Shown here: positions 20,067 to 35,100 of the stretch, one piece after another
Layout of the letters: each line of letters starts with the position of its first letter
Numbering within the stretch: the first letter of the stretch is position 1
Assembly (NCBI RefSeq): GCF_014378415.1
Contig: NZ_JACMNS010000011.1
Span: 1 to 56,429 of the forward strand
Source: Aquabacterium sp.
GTDB lineage: Bacteria; Pseudomonadota; Gammaproteobacteria; Burkholderiales; Burkholderiaceae_C
Reading direction: 5' to 3'
DNA: 56,429 nt
Position numbers and translations under genes: made by a program
Notes under the pieces: generated by a model
Told to the model about the DNA's origin: nothing
Seen by the model: the letters and a program-made list of their open reading frames with translations, nothing else
Databases searched by the model: none

Positions 20067-21315
<1,249 letters not shown>

Positions 21316-29308: not shown

Positions 29309-31654
29309 ATGTCATCCATAGGCTCTTCGCGTGCATTGGCCATCACGGCCCGAAAAACCTATTTGGAAACCCTCTTGCGGGGCGCCTCCGGGTTGATCCA
29401 CGCCTGTGCCAACGGTGGCAAGTTGCTGGCCTCGCAAACGGCGGAACCCGGGCTGTACATGCGCCGACGCGATCTGGTGCTGGACATGCCGCTGAGCCTG
29501 GATGCCTGGCAGCGTGGGTTTGAGCAGCGCATCCAGTCTGCCTTGACGGCAGTGCGTCTGGCCCGACCCTTGGACACCAAGCCCGTGGGGCAGTTGGTGT
29601 CCAACCTCACCCTGGTCGAAGACAGCGCGGTCGAACAAGACATGATGGCTTCCCGCCTGGGGCAGGCCATCGCCGACCGGGCTGGTTGGGAGTACACCGA
29701 CCTGTGCTCGCGCCTGAATGCCCTGGAGGCCGGCAGCACCAACCACATTGACCCCGCAGGCGACGTGCTGCGCCCACAAGTGCTGGCGCGCTGGCTGATC
29801 GACAGCTGGACCGACGCTGGCCTGGGCGCCACGCACTGGATGACCTTGCAAACCGTGCTGCATGACGAGGCCACGCACCTGGCGCAAGAGGCCTATCACG
29901 ACGCCAACCATGTGCTGTTGGACCACGGCGTCAAGCCTGAAATCGATTTGCGGCCCTTCATCCGGCGGACCAAGGACACGGGTGTGGGCCCGACCATTCA
30001 TCGCTCCGCCTCGCCCTATGTGAGCGGCAGCGCCGCGCCGATGTTGAACTCCGGGCTGGGTGGCGCCTCGCAGATGGGCGGCAACAGCGGCTTGCAGCCC
30101 ATGGGCGGCGCCCATGAAGAAACCCGATTGATGACGCAAACGCCCGCCTTGCGCCGCTCGGCGGTGCCGGCCCAAGCGGTGTTGGGCAAGCTCAACCAGT
30201 TCGTGTCCCACAAGGTGCCCGGCTTCGCGCTCACGCAGGTGCTGGGCAGCGCCAACGTCGTGGTGGGCGTGGTCGCGCCGGCGTTGGGCCAGGCCATCCA
30301 GGACGCCGGCCAGGCGGTGCGTCGCCACGCTGATGGCGAGTCGGGCGTGCCCACGGGCACCCCTGCGGCCTTGCTGCAAGATCTGCAGGACAGCAGGCGT
30401 GCCCTCAAGCAAGCGGCCAGCACGCCCAACGAGCGCGCCGTCATCGAGATCGTGGCGCTGCTGTTTCAAAGCATCCTGACCGAAGAGCGCTTGCCGGCCG
30501 CCATCCGCGTCTGGTTCGCCCGCCTGCAGATGCCGGTGCTGCGCGTGGCCGTCACCGAGCCCGATTTTTTCGCCACCATTGACCACCCGGCCCGTGCCCT
30601 GATCGACCGCATGGGCGCCTGCGTGATGGGGTTTGCCGCCAGCACCCGCGAGCAGGAAGACACCTTGCCCGGCGAGATCAAGCGCATCGTGCAGGTGGTC
30701 GAGGCTTACCCCGACACCGGTCGGCGCGTGTTCCAGACCGTGCTGCTCGAGTTCGAAAAATTCCTCGAGCGCTATTTCCGCGACGAGAACGAATCCAGTC
30801 GCAAGGGTGTGTCCCTGGCGCAGCAGGTTGAGCAGCGCGAAACTTGGGCGATCCAGTACACCATTGAGCTGCGCAAGATGCTGGCCGATGTGCCGGTGCA
30901 CGAAGGCGTGCGCGAATTCCTGTTCCGCGTCTGGGCCGATGTGCTGGCCCACAGCGCGGTGCAGACCAGCCCGTCGAGTGAAGAAACCCGCGTGCTCAAG
31001 CGTGCTGCTGCCGACCTGATCTGGTCGGCCAGCGCCAAGCATTCGCGCGAAGACCGCGCCGACGTGCTGCGCCGCCTGCCGCCTTTGCTCAAGAAGGTGC
31101 GTGATGGCATGGGGCGCGCCGGCATGTCCGTCGAAAAGCAGGACGAGCACGTGCACGTGCTCAACGCTGCGCTGGCCGCGGCCTTCTCGGCCCGCTCGGC
31201 CACGATCTCGTCCGCCCATTTGAAGGAAGTGACCGAACGCCTGGAGGCGCTGGACGACATCCTGCCCAACCTGGCCGAGGTTGAACTCGACGCGCAAACT
31301 TTGCGCGACCTGTCGGGCCACGAAAGCGACGACCTCGAGGTGGTGGCCGAAGGCGGCACGATGCCCACGCCCGCCATGATGGCCTGGGCCCGCGAGTTGC
31401 AAATTGGCGCCTGGTTCCAGCTGGACTACCGGGGCAGCCAGGAGCCGGTGCAGTTCGCCTGGTCAGGCCTGCAAAAACAACTGGCTTTGTTCGTGACGCC
31501 GCAGGGGCGGGGCGTGCTGTTCCAGTTGCACCGCTTGGCAGCTTTTCTGCAAGCGGGGTTGCTGGTGCCGGTGGAGGATGAATCCCTCACTGTGCGTGCC
31601 ACGCGTGAGGCCTTGGCCAAGTTGGATGCTGATCCGGCGCGGTTGCTGAATTAG
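29309..31654 (+). CDS. DUF1631 family protein
   Basis: Encodes 781 residues. The N-terminal YMRRRDLVLDMPLSLDAWQRGFEQRI, the central RALIDRMGACVMGF followed by IKRIVQVVEAYPDTGRRVFQTVLLEFEKFL, and the C-terminal LQIGAWFQLDYRG.. LQKQLALFVTPQGRG region are hallmarks of DUF1631. The C-terminal 90 residues resemble a PilZ-like beta domain, though I cannot see the RxxxR and DxSxxG ligand set for c-di-GMP. The protein is predicted cytoplasmic and largely helical. Function is unknown. It converges on a GGDEF-EAL gene 474 bases downstream. Confidence 0.88.
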   Translation: MSSIGSSRALAITARKTYLETLLRGASGLIHACANGGKLLASQTAEPGLYMRRRDLVLDMPLSLDAWQRGFEQRIQSALTAVRLARPLDTKPVGQLVSNLTLVEDSAVEQDMMASRLGQAIADRAGWEYTDLCSRLNALEAGSTNHIDPAGDVLRPQVLARWLIDSWTDAGLGATHWMTLQTVLHDEATHLAQEAYHDANHVLLDHGVKPEIDLRPFIRRTKDTGVGPTIHRSASPYVSGSAAPMLNSGLGGASQMGGNSGLQPMGGAHEETRLMTQTPALRRSAVPAQAVLGKLNQFVSHKVPGFALTQVLGSANVVVGVVAPALGQAIQDAGQAVRRHADGESGVPTGTPAALLQDLQDSRRALKQAASTPNERAVIEIVALLFQSILTEERLPAAIRVWFARLQMPVLRVAVTEPDFFATIDHPARALIDRMGACVMGFAASTREQEDTLPGEIKRIVQVVEAYPDTGRRVFQTVLLEFEKFLERYFRDENESSRKGVSLAQQVEQRETWAIQYTIELRKMLADVPVHEGVREFLFRVWADVLAHSAVQTSPSSEETRVLKRAAADLIWSASAKHSREDRADVLRRLPPLLKKVRDGMGRAGMSVEKQDEHVHVLNAALAAAFSARSATISSAHLKEVTERLEALDDILPNLAEVELDAQTLRDLSGHESDDLEVVAEGGTMPTPAMMAWARELQIGAWFQLDYRGSQEPVQFAWSGLQKQLALFVTPQGRGVLFQLHRLAAFLQAGLLVPVEDESLTVRATREALAKLDADPARLLN

Positions 31655-31686
31655 TTTTTGCTTTGCTTAGCGCGCGAGGCTGGGCT

Positions 31687-32076
31687 GAGCCGGTGGCTGG
31701 CAGGGCGCCGATGGTGGCGGCGTCGTCGCCCTGCCACCCACCGGCTCATCCTTTGACGCCTCGCTGGTGGCGTGGCCCGAGGTGGCGTGCCACCAGCGGC
31801 AAGATTCTCGCCAAGGGGGCCGTGCCACACCACCAGCGGGGCGAAAAAGGGCTGGGGCGGTCTTCGGCGGGGCGCCTGGCTTGGTGCTGAGAAGCGCAGT
31901 GCCAAGGTGGGCGTGCGCAGCACGCATCAATAACTGACTGGCCGTGGTTGTTTGAACGAAGCGGATGCAATCCGCGCAGTGAGTTCCACGGCCCCACCTT
32001 GGCACGAGCATCGCAAGGCAGTCCCGCTAACAGCGGGACCACCAAGCTGAAGCCCTGCCGGAGACCGCCCCAGCCC
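31687..32076 (+). other. Highly structured 390-bp intergenic element (possible RNA or cruciform element)
   Basis: The gene-free stretch 31655-32128 contains many long inverted repeats that nest without conflict. Helix A: 31687-31707 with 31727-31747, 20 of 21 pairs. Helix B: 31762-31771 with 31789-31798, 10 of 10. Helix C: 31849-31873 with 32052-32076, 25 continuous pairs, two of them G-U on the plus strand. Inside C: helix D 31879-31886/32040-32047 (8), helix E 31899-31911/31993-32005 (13), hairpin F 31911-31925, helix G 31940-31947/31986-31993 (8), hairpin H 31961-31975 and hairpin I 32021-32039. The two G-U pairs favour a plus-strand RNA. No promoter, ribosome site or credible gene is seen. 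It lies between converging genes, so a termination or nucleoid role, or a dispersed repeat, is also possible. Confidence 0.75.
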
Positions 32077-32128
32077 GCGCCCCGCGCTGAATAACCAAGC
32101 GCCACAACGGTTGCCAAGCACCAGAACC

Positions 32129-35100
32129 CTACGAAGCCGGATTCTTCGCCGTGGCCGCGATGCGCGCCAGCGCATCCTTCGCCGCGCTGTCCCGGCTGTG
32201 CTCCATCAGCAAAGCCTCAAAAGCAGGCTCGGCCATCGGGCGGGCCAGGAAATAACCCTGGCACTCGTCGCACCCGTGCGCCTTCAAAAACGAGTACTGC
32301 GCGTCGTTCTCCACACCCTCGGCCACGATGCCCACTTCCAGCCGATGAGCCATCGCGATCAAGGCAGCGGCCAGGCGGCTGTCGCCGGGCGAGCTCGGTA
32401 CATTGCTCAAGAATGAGCGGTCCATCTTGAGCCGGTCTACCGGCAACTCGCGCAAGTACGAGAAGCTGGAATAGCCCACGCCAAAGTCGTCAATGGCAAT
32501 GCCCACACCCAAGGAGCGCAACTGCGTCAACACAGCGGCAGCGCGCAGCGATTCACGCACCACCACGCTTTCGGTGATCTCCAGCTCCAGCGCGGTCGGC
32601 GGCAATCCGGTTTCCTTCAACACGCGGTCCACCACATCGACGATGTCGGGCTGGTCCAGCTGGATGGCCGACAGGTTGACGGCGATGCGCATGGGCCAGC
32701 CGCTGCGCTCACGCCAGGCCTGGGCCTTCTGGCAGGCGCGGCGCAGCACCCATTCGCCCATGGGCACGATCAGCCCAGTCTCTTCGGCCAGGGGGATGAA
32801 ATCGGCCGGGGGCACCAGCTTGCCGCCATGCTCCCATCGCACCAGCGCTTCGGCACCCGTGATGCGGCCGGTCATGCAGTCGAACTGGGGCTGGAAGTGC
32901 AGGCGCAACTCGTCGCGCTCCAACGCCTTGTACAGGTCGTTTTCCAGGCGCAGGGTGTCCAGCGTGGGCGACTCCATGTGCTCGGTGTACATCTGCACGC
33001 GGTTTCGGCCGTGGCTCTTGGCCTGGTACATGGCCAGGTCAGCGTGGCGCATCAGCGTGATCGCGTCGGTGCCGTGCGCAGGGTAAATCACCAGGCCGAT
33101 GCTGGGCGTGACGCGCAACTCGTGCGGGCCCACACGCAGTGGTTCGGCAAAGATGTCCAGCAGCTTTTGCGCGACCACGGCGCCGTCTTCCGCCAAGGCG
33201 ATGCGCGGCAGCATCACCACGAATTCGTCGCCGCCCAGGCGGGCCACGATGTCGGAGGTGCGCATCTCGGAGCGCAGGCGGCGCGCCACCTCGATCAGCA
33301 CGCTGTCGCCGATGTGGTGGCCCAGCGTGTCGTTGATTTTCTTGAAGCGGTCCAGGTCCAGGAACATCAGCGCCAGGCTGTTGCCGTCGCGCTCGGCCAG
33401 GGTCACCGAGGCCTTGAGCTGCTCCTGCAGCATGTTGCGGTTGGGCAGGCCGGTCAGCGAGTCGTGCAGGGCCAGGTGCTGCAACTGGCTCTCGGCTTCG
33501 CGGCGCGAGGTCACGTCCGAGGCCATGGCCAGGTAGCCGGTCATCTCATCGATCTCGTTGCACAGGATGGTGACGGTGACCTCGGCGGTGAGGTGGCGGC
33601 CATCGCAGCGCACCAGGGTCCACTCGCTGGGCAGGCCGGGCGATTCGTGCGCCAGGTGGGACAGCACCTGCATGTGCTCGATCGGGCGGTTCAGGCGCAG
33701 GGCCAGCATGCGGGCGCGCTCGTTCACCTCGTCGGGCTCGAAGAAGCGCTCGGCGGTGCTCTTGCCGATCAACTCGTTGGATTTGTAGCCCAGCAAGGCC
33801 TCGCCCGCCGGGTTGACGGTCTGGATGATGCCGTGGCGGTTGAGCACGAAGATGGCGTACGGCGCGTTGTGCACGATGACGCGGCGCATCTCGTCCACCT
33901 CGTTGAGCTGGCGTTGCGCCTCTTGGACGGACTGCTCCGCCAAGTATTCGGAACTAAGGTCGCGCAGGATGCCGACGCATTGTTTTTCGCCATTGACGTC
34001 CATGTGGCTGACGGCCAAGTCCAGCGGCAAGGTACGGCCGTCCTGGTGCTTACCCTCCACGCGGTGCCCCACGCCGTCAAAGCTCATCTGCTGGGTCAGC
34101 AGGAAGTCTTCCATGGGTTGGTCCAGGCCGTGGCTGCGGATGCCGGGAATCAGGCGGCTCAAGGGCTGGCCCACCATCTCGTCTGCGTCATGCCCGAAGA
34201 TGCGGCTGATGGCCGGATTGACCGTCAGCACGGTGCCGGCTTCGTTCACGGTGACGATGCCATCGACCGTGTTGTCGATCACCGAGCGCAGGTGTTTTTC
34301 GCTGGACAGGGCTTGGCTGCTCAAGCGGTGCGCCATGCGCGTGGCCCGGCCGTATTGCGTGGCAAAGCCGCGCAGTGCCAACCACAAACCGGCGGTGACC
34401 AGCAGGCCGCTGATCAGCAGTGTCATCGGGTAGCGCTGCCATGCCGCATTGACCGGCGGGCGCACCATGATCAACTCCCAGCGGCGGCCGGCCGCTTCCA
34501 CGGTTTGCAAGCGGTGGTCCTCATCGGCCACAGGCCGTTGGGGCTTGAAGGCGGTGCTTGCCAGTTGCGCAGTGTCGAACAACTGCTGCGGCTGAGCCAA
34601 CGCCACGGTGCGCTCGGCAGGACCGACATCGCGCACCACCCACCGGCGTGAAGCCCAGTCGTCGGGGTTGATGATGGTGCCCAGGATGGACTCGGCCTGG
34701 AAGGCCGCGCCAATCTGCCCGATGAAAGCCTGGCGGCGTTGCTCCACGGTGGCCAGCGGGCTGTGGGGCTGGTAGAGGGGCGCGCGGATCACGAAGCCCA
34801 GGGCCTGGCGGTCGCCGGACACCAGGGTCAAGGGCGCCGATGCTGTGGGTTTGCCGCTATCACGTGCCAGCTCGGTGGTTTCGCGCCGGCTGGTTTCATG
34901 GATCTGGTCATAGCCCAGGACTTTCTCATTGTTGACCGTGGGCTCCACATAGGTCACCGCCATGTACTCTGGGCGCTTGCCCGGGGGGTGAATGGCATAG
35001 CCAGGGTTGCCTTGCTCGCTCAAACTTTTGTCGGCGCGCACCGAGGCCTCAAACGCGGATTTTTTTTCTTGCGGCACCCGTTTGGAGAACTGCACGGCCA

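Follow-up and report, generated by a model that had tools for sequence, protein, structure and literature searches.

Repetitive extragenic palindromes of the REP/BIME/REPIN type are dispersed through bacterial genomes at 3' ends and between convergent genes, where they form inverted palindromic pairs; the REPIN unit measures ~20–40 nt, and REPINs are held to move in trans via RAYTs. ERIC, NEMIS/Correia elements and MITEs are intergenic inverted-repeat elements able to fold in mRNA, built as simpler hairpins and in some cases bearing the terminal repeats of a transposase family. The HEARO/omega RNA is a large structured RNA that is dispersed with mobile elements. Here, we compare with these systems an intergenic element from Aquabacterium sp., at positions 31687–32076 of a 56,429-nt stretch of contig NZ_JACMNS010000011.1 (the whole stretch analysed, herein referred to as the window), which lies within a 474-bp gap between the tail-to-tail genes for a DUF1631 protein (ending at 31654 with a TAG stop) and a CHASE/PAS/GGDEF/EAL protein (minus strand, stop at 32129).

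The likeness to REP/BIME/REPIN repeats is one of architecture: both consist of palindromic units in inverted pairs, and the Aquabacterium loci analysed contain 67 (minus, plus) neighbours less than 900 bp apart, a count into which one locus enters twice. However, each half of the element spans 220–269 nt (138 unique full-length halves) and holds a multi-branched conserved core instead of a short hairpin, there are at most 37 model matches per Aquabacterium genome and not >100 copies, and the element shows no association with Y1_Tnp (PF01797) genes in 42 genomes. It differs from ERIC, NEMIS/Correia and MITEs in its compensated multi-helix core and in that no target-site duplication was seen, and from the HEARO/omega RNA in its inverted pairs and in giving no Rfam match. 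By description, the nearest published repeat that we found is BRE, a G+C-rich, usually intergenic repeat of Bordetella, Polaromonas, Delftia and others, 75–91 bp long, in tandem arrays of variable number and present at a locus that expresses a small RNA (PMC3110155). The element is longer than BRE and comes in inverted pairs. Rfam 15 gave no match over the gathering score on the window element, nor on the element in the 16 loci examined of 52 from other genera and orders; permissive matches fell far below the family cut-offs and were nearly all to microRNA models. No published description was found in the open-access literature, and the repeat is apparently undescribed so far.

Anatomy of the window copy and of the family in Aquabacterium

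An earlier note, made from the letters of the window, had proposed a 390-bp structured intergenic element at 31687–32076. The structured element is real, but the full unit is bigger, extending from 31655 to ~32105 (table 1), and each of the nested helices that had been named was found in place, including the 25-nt stem 31849–31873/32052–32076 (92% complementary). The minimum free energy of the plus strand of the interval is −265.6 kcal/mol, against −185.5 ± 5.9 kcal/mol for 100 dinucleotide shuffles, none of which folded as well (z −13.6); the minus strand behaves similarly (z −13.9), and because both strands fold about equally, energy alone does not pick one.

Table 1. Features of the window copy, in window coordinates.
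Feature	Position	Strand	Remarks
Left 3' tail	31655–31668	−	directly after the DUF1631 TAG; compared with outer ends of other copies
Left (inverted) half, remnant	31669–31774	−	outer stem kept, ~190-nt core gone; hairpin 31683–31751
5' hairpin	31683–31711/31723–31751		predicted earlier, found in place
Second 5' hairpin	31762–31771/31789–31798		predicted earlier, found in place
Spacer	31775–31826	.	52-nt gap separating the halves
Central hairpin from both 5' ends	31750–31779/31821–31850		inverted repeat I2, 83% complementary
Intact right half, type I, 262 nt	31827–32088	+	nhmmer 234 bits
Conserved core, covariance model R1 (165 positions)	31881–32045	+	R1 190.4 bits (window copy among the 49 copies from which R1 was built); R2 78.3 bits
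Long closing stem, 5' strand	31849–31873	+	pairs with 32052–32076 (I3)
Long closing stem, 3' strand	32052–32076	+	pairs with 31849–31873 (I3)
Helix	31879–31886/32040–32047	+	predicted earlier, found in place
Inner stem, 5' strand	31899–31911	+	pairs with 31993–32005 (I5)
Small hairpin	31911–31925	+	helix 8 of A1: both-side change in 4/6 pairs, 100% of cells paired
Apical arm with conserved TGTTTGA, GAGTT	31940–31993	+	helices 9–11 of A1; letters kept in other genera
Apical-arm helix	31940–31947/31986–31993	+	predicted earlier, found in place
Hairpin inside apical arm	31961–31975	+	helices 9–11 of A1
8-bp hairpin 3' of apical arm	32021–32039	+	32021–32028/32032–32039 (I15)
Right 3' tail	32089–32105	+	degenerate copy of GCCCCGACAAAGCGC; right end approximate; 134 outer ends compared

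The window element comprises one intact 262-nt half, a central hairpin and a left half that has shrunk to a hairpin. We read it as a copy, in part decayed, of a structured repeat that is dispersed and non-autonomous. The left half was recognized from a half-profile nhmmer match (L001 1571–1620, corresponding to 31725–31774), from the inverted repeat I1 and from the similarities D1 and I4 to the right half. The window core is the sole match in the window to covariance model R1 at E ≤ 0.01, and it is matched at E 6.0e-14 by model R2, which was built only from copies in other orders. Elsewhere in the window, 21227–21314 (+) matches the Rfam family anti-hemB (RF02837, Burkholderia RNA 7) with 60.7 bits against a gathering score of 49.5.

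The 3.83-Mb draft genome to which the window belongs holds eight near-full core copies, the window's included, that are 85–100% identical, together with shorter pieces of the element (blastn of 31655–32130). An exact-pattern scan of genomes returned 39 stretches, 32 of them from Aquabacterium, and iterated nhmmer over 80 fetched stretches and 16 others gave 324 matches (reverse-strand self-matches included), or 170 once overlaps were removed. Full-length matches numbered 141, of which 138 were unique (104 type I, scoring at least 140 bits, and 34 type II). The usual Aquabacterium element is an inverted, outward-pointing (minus, plus) pair with facing 5' ends, and the few remaining neighbours less than 900 bp apart represent either fragments of a split half or an incomplete second copy. 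The gap across the facing 5' ends measures 15–194 nt in 60 of the 67 pairs, and the two 5' ends form a central hairpin. Solo halves exist, as 27 loci have a single match, and internally deleted as well as solo halves are seen at further loci. Some genomes of the genus carry variants (L048, L049 and L050) that match the window family in the core only and have different outer stems.

Each half bears a 3' tail with the consensus GCCCCGACAAAGCGC (134 ends). The outer ends were also considered as a covarying closing stem, for which there was a weak excess only, within 40 pairs (0.57 identity over the first five letters versus 0.495 in shuffles, 8 of 2000 shuffles being as high), and they are hence taken as conserved 3' tails. 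Longer spacers in three loci carry genes enclosed between the minus and plus halves, which encode PEP-CTERM (L128 1356–2069, −), PIN7 (L132 292–930, +) and DUF1963 (L099 1730–3562, +) proteins; as candidates for an autonomous part they were rejected, since the three proteins are mutually unrelated and the genes would be passengers or chance neighbours. Spacer frames in L101 (1258–1697), L099 (1263–1730) and L096 (1264–2096) translate to repetitive peptides, so some elements may contain short tandem repeats.

Distribution in Betaproteobacteria and Gammaproteobacteria

Model R1 was derived from alignment A2 (47 of the 60 halves of alignment A1, described below, plus L048 and L049). At E ≤ 0.01 it has matches in 25 of the 42 Aquabacterium genomes (0–37 per genome); in the order, 49 of 300 genomes are matched at 1e-3 and, in the class, 18 of 369 at 1e-4, the window's own genome being included in all three counts. 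Model R2 was built from 31 matches, all outside the order, in a search that used 23 of the 26 loci of the R1 class search and left out copies from the own family. At 1e-4, R2 matches 95 of the 300 order genomes (52 of 135 genera) and 64 of the 369 class genomes (50 of 272 genera), own genome included in each, that is, about a third of the sampled Burkholderiales genomes and about a sixth of the class-level sample; its per-genome counts in these searches are lower bounds, as about ten candidates were scored. Because R2 derives from R1 matches, it serves as a check of consistency and not as a blind discovery, and two genomes (G134 and G174) have an R1 match and no R2 match. The specificity of both models rests on the rest of the window being without a match, on there being several copies in a genome and on their arrangement in pairs. 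That the family is dispersed in other Burkholderiales, as had been tentatively suggested, is borne out by the R1 and R2 matches in genomes of the order, and other orders are reached too. A first blastn comparison had pointed to a family confined to the genus (20 of 61 genomes, and 0 of 24 outside it), a view overturned by the covariance models.

The modelled core spans ~105–190 nt outside Aquabacterium, compared with the ~262-nt half within it. Model-confirmed hosts comprise Aquabacterium, Leptothrix sp. PB2.3.27 and, with (minus, plus) pairs, a Stagnimonas MAG (Nevskiales) and plasmid records of Variovorax paradoxus and Comamonas odontotermitis, for which the gene table, itself incomplete, lists nothing at the pairs. 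Phages and plasmids had been considered as carriers and rejected, the window core being unmatched there at E ≤ 1e-3, yet plasmids do carry these distant pairs; three viral-contig pattern hits and one Knoellia hit gave no R1 match. The mirrored arrangement recurs in the loci from other genera, where, of 22 adjacencies, 20 have the (minus, plus) order and the other two are (minus, minus) and (plus, plus). Among the R2 matches listed, neighbours within ~2 kb were counted by eye: nine (minus, plus), two of which take their partner from the R1 order search, and three (plus, minus) in the order, and 14 (minus, plus) and no (plus, minus) in the class outside the own genome. The (plus, minus) exceptions all belong to genus g33; in one of its loci (L353, 1501–1620 on the plus and 1903–2016 on the minus strand) the tails are on the inside of the two halves, the layout that two solo halves next to each other would have.

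Three further observations concern the distant loci. The outer tail in distant hosts (L322, L359 and L353) has a pyrimidine-rich hairpin, CTTTTCTTTG..CAAAGAAAAG and the like. Taken on its own, the opening 60-letter stretch of the L322 query has matches in plasmid records of Aeromonas, Pasteurella and Burkholderia. L257 1924–2293 (+) resembles the cspA thermoregulator family with 75.6 bits, just under the gathering score of 78.

Compensatory change and strand asymmetry

Alignment A1 holds 60 of 68 type I halves (below 90% identity), the 68 having been picked from the 104. The structure given by RNAalifold has 78 pairs, 62 of which change on both sides among the 60 copies, including 15 of 19 pairs in the long closing stem (helix 3), 10 of 12 in the inner stem (helix 7) and six of eight in the hairpin at 32021–32039 (helix 12). 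Across A1, 97.2% of cells are paired, as against 81.7% in shuffles (0 of 500 as high) and 37–44% in slid-partner controls; the shuffles ignore relatedness, whereas the slid controls keep it but favour a structure drawn from the same sequences. Twelve sequences less than 75% identical retain both-side change in 53 of the 78 pairs (shuffle mean 26.8, maximum 35). The base pairs of the half are maintained by compensatory change, and the covariation among aligned homologues that the earlier note had proposed as a check is strong.

The strand on which the fold is selected was assessed from G-U and A-C pairs. The structure derived from the plus strand of A1 contains 222 G-U versus 14 A-C (170 versus 14 without one U-G column); this structure, however, was itself picked on the plus strand. 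Over the 66 strand-neutral type I pairs, which are found from both strands, there are 111 G-U versus 12 A-C, in agreement with the plus-strand selection that had been proposed for the long stem; the 51 pairs common to both strands in type II give 34 versus 12. Plus-derived type II pairs give 73 versus 13, whereas the asymmetry of minus-derived pairs is weak in type I (112 versus 74) and reversed in type II (35 versus 53), as expected from how those pairs are chosen. Model-fitted alignments of copies from other genera give 102 versus 27 (A3) and 62 versus 14 (A4). G-U is thus tolerated far more than A-C, so that the sense strand of each half is the one constrained, as a folded single strand, and both RNA and single-stranded DNA fit such a constraint. 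Replication polarity does not readily account for the asymmetry, as the two halves of a pair occupy opposite DNA strands.

Outside Aquabacterium, letters are kept in one internal loop (5' side, GAGNANCNNAG; 3' side, GAGNANCGCAG) and in the apical arm (TGT, GA and GAGTT), while the stems vary in A3 and A4. These letters are unpaired or loop-closing and are present in at least 85% of A3/A4 rows (a few positions in A4 only), the rows having come from a model that itself favours kept loop letters; as a sequence pattern, they point to a specific fold or a protein site. Palindromes could also be kept perfect at the DNA level by template-switch correction, with no selection on structure; this would suit the near-equal folding of the two strands and the match of each half to its own reverse complement. 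However, it predicts neither a G-U/A-C asymmetry relative to the sense strand of the half, observed at 111 versus 12, nor conservation of unpaired letters across genera, which are kept, and we consider it very improbable.

Long open frames on the minus strand overlap the interval 31687–32076, as a degenerate protein-coding sequence would have it, and such stretches may stand as spurious proteins in Comamonadaceae. No frame, however, stays open in more than 50 of the 104 related halves, and the three minus-strand frames are alike in this respect (44, 50 and 40), so that an interval without a gene, as first read, is upheld and a coding origin is barely credible. The first interpretation stands in its strand, its covariation, its absence of a frame and its dispersal, and is amended in the unit, which is an inverted pair of ~262-nt halves.

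Gene context, site occupancy and origin

Aquabacterium pairs lie behind gene ends, mostly between convergent genes. A simple codon-usage scan placed 42 of 57 resolved pairs between convergent genes, 15 between tandem genes and none between divergent genes; 26 resolved solo halves were convergent in 20 cases, tandem in five and divergent in one, and in 22 of them the half is approached in its sense direction by the gene 5' of it (orthologous sites count separately here, and one solo contig counts twice). In other genera and orders, a rough scan trained on the window's genes resolved 26 of 44 units on both sides, with 10 convergent, 15 tandem and one divergent. This context, in particular the absence of divergent pairs and the sense reading into solo halves, is what would be expected of a resident RNA element of mRNA 3' ends, in which the folded sense half blocks 3' exonucleases, or terminates or insulates convergent transcription; a transcript of either convergent gene would cross one half antisense and then the other half sense. 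The plus-strand G-U/A-C asymmetry also fits such a role, although the Aquabacterium outer ends show by eye no T run typical of an intrinsic terminator.

Occupancy of the window site was compared among relatives. The two flanking genes are 474 bp apart in the window genome and 586 bp apart in G015, versus −4 to 51 bp in six relatives that keep the gene pair without the element (a 4-bp overlap in G031, and 18–51 bp in G030, G034, G017, G035 and G006). Distances were measurable in eight of the 10 loci compared, two having no neighbour match; these 10 were taken from 30, and the remaining 20 comprise four with an EAL-gene match further off or unmeasured (L208–L211) and 16 without one. The G034 proteins at this site are 92–98% identical to the window's, and the 45-bp gap between their genes holds a piece matching the outer end of G004, so the absence looks like loss; as the G034 site, and perhaps one empty site, retain such scraps, some absences appear to be losses. 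In G004, the halves at the window site are ~890 bp apart with a PEP-CTERM gene in between. Of six sites occupied in G015, three correspond, when their flanks are joined, to contiguous empty places in the genome that holds the window, and neither a target-site duplication nor a clean junction was seen at these three empty sites, where 20–30 bp at the junctions align poorly.

Where the site is occupied, the element changes in a compensatory manner. Three comparisons of window-site orthologues, sharing three sequences, show 4, 4 and 8 both-side changes, 3, 4 and 5 one-side G-U changes, and no broken pair. In total, 32 site comparisons, for which similar flanks were the criterion of choice and which overlap in part (three are of a contig with itself and one was made twice), contain 207 both-side changes, 95 one-side changes that keep the pair and 88 pairs broken in one copy. 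At some site pairs the flanks resemble each other more closely than the elements do, as if other copies had replaced the original ones. A cell function in place could underlie the compensatory change seen at fixed sites. The window-site orthologues hence favour the resident 3'-end element, whereas its frequent absence disfavours it: besides the six relatives, 17 of the 42 Aquabacterium genomes have no R1 match (the filters lose weak matches), and the number of R1 matches varies between genomes from none to 37. On balance, we judge a resident 3'-end element possible but rather unlikely.

The reading that we favour, at about an even chance of being correct, is a non-autonomous REPIN/BIME-like element that is moved in trans and is far larger and more RNA-like than the known ones. 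The folded sense strand of each half would be read by an enzyme that moves or copies the unit in trans, as RAYTs are held to do for REPINs; movement in trans is suggested by the presence/absence of the element at sites, by the 0–37 matches per genome and by the clustering of copies by lineage. Its location at gene ends may mean that insertion is harmless there, or that the structure shields mRNA 3' ends, and the mobile and 3'-end readings can hold together. Two candidate mobilizers were rejected: RAYT genes (Y1_Tnp, PF01797) occur in 11 of 25 genomes with the element versus nine of 17 without, and reverse transcriptases in eight of 25 versus six of 17. Neither is singled out by association, and G025 has 36 R1 matches and no RAYT match.

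Site occupancy that varies, and a core with conserved loops and variable stems, would also suit a guide or scaffold RNA of a mobile system (the omega RNA of IscB/TnpB or the bridge RNA of IS110) present as solo copies. We consider this improbable, as there is no Rfam match, HEARO included, and the IscB domain PF14239 is found in 0 of 42 genomes, a weak point since the control was silent too; neither omega RNA nor bridge RNA is known to occur in mirrored pairs. Returning to the element moved in trans, a wider and more tentative proposition, for which we hold somewhat less than an even chance, is that it belongs to a class-wide and so far unrecognized group of selfish structured nucleic acids, mirrored RNA or single-stranded DNA pairs that share a conserved core fold and are spread by an enzyme that recognizes the folded strand.

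The absence from Rfam of a repeat this big, structurally conserved and broadly distributed points to a considerable blind spot in genome annotation. Mobility would call for an as yet undiscovered enzyme that moves folded units of 260 nt, frequently as mirrored pairs; action at mRNA ends would make the element a large, shared 3'-end module for convergent genes. The many natural compensatory variants would make structure–function tests straightforward in laboratory strains.
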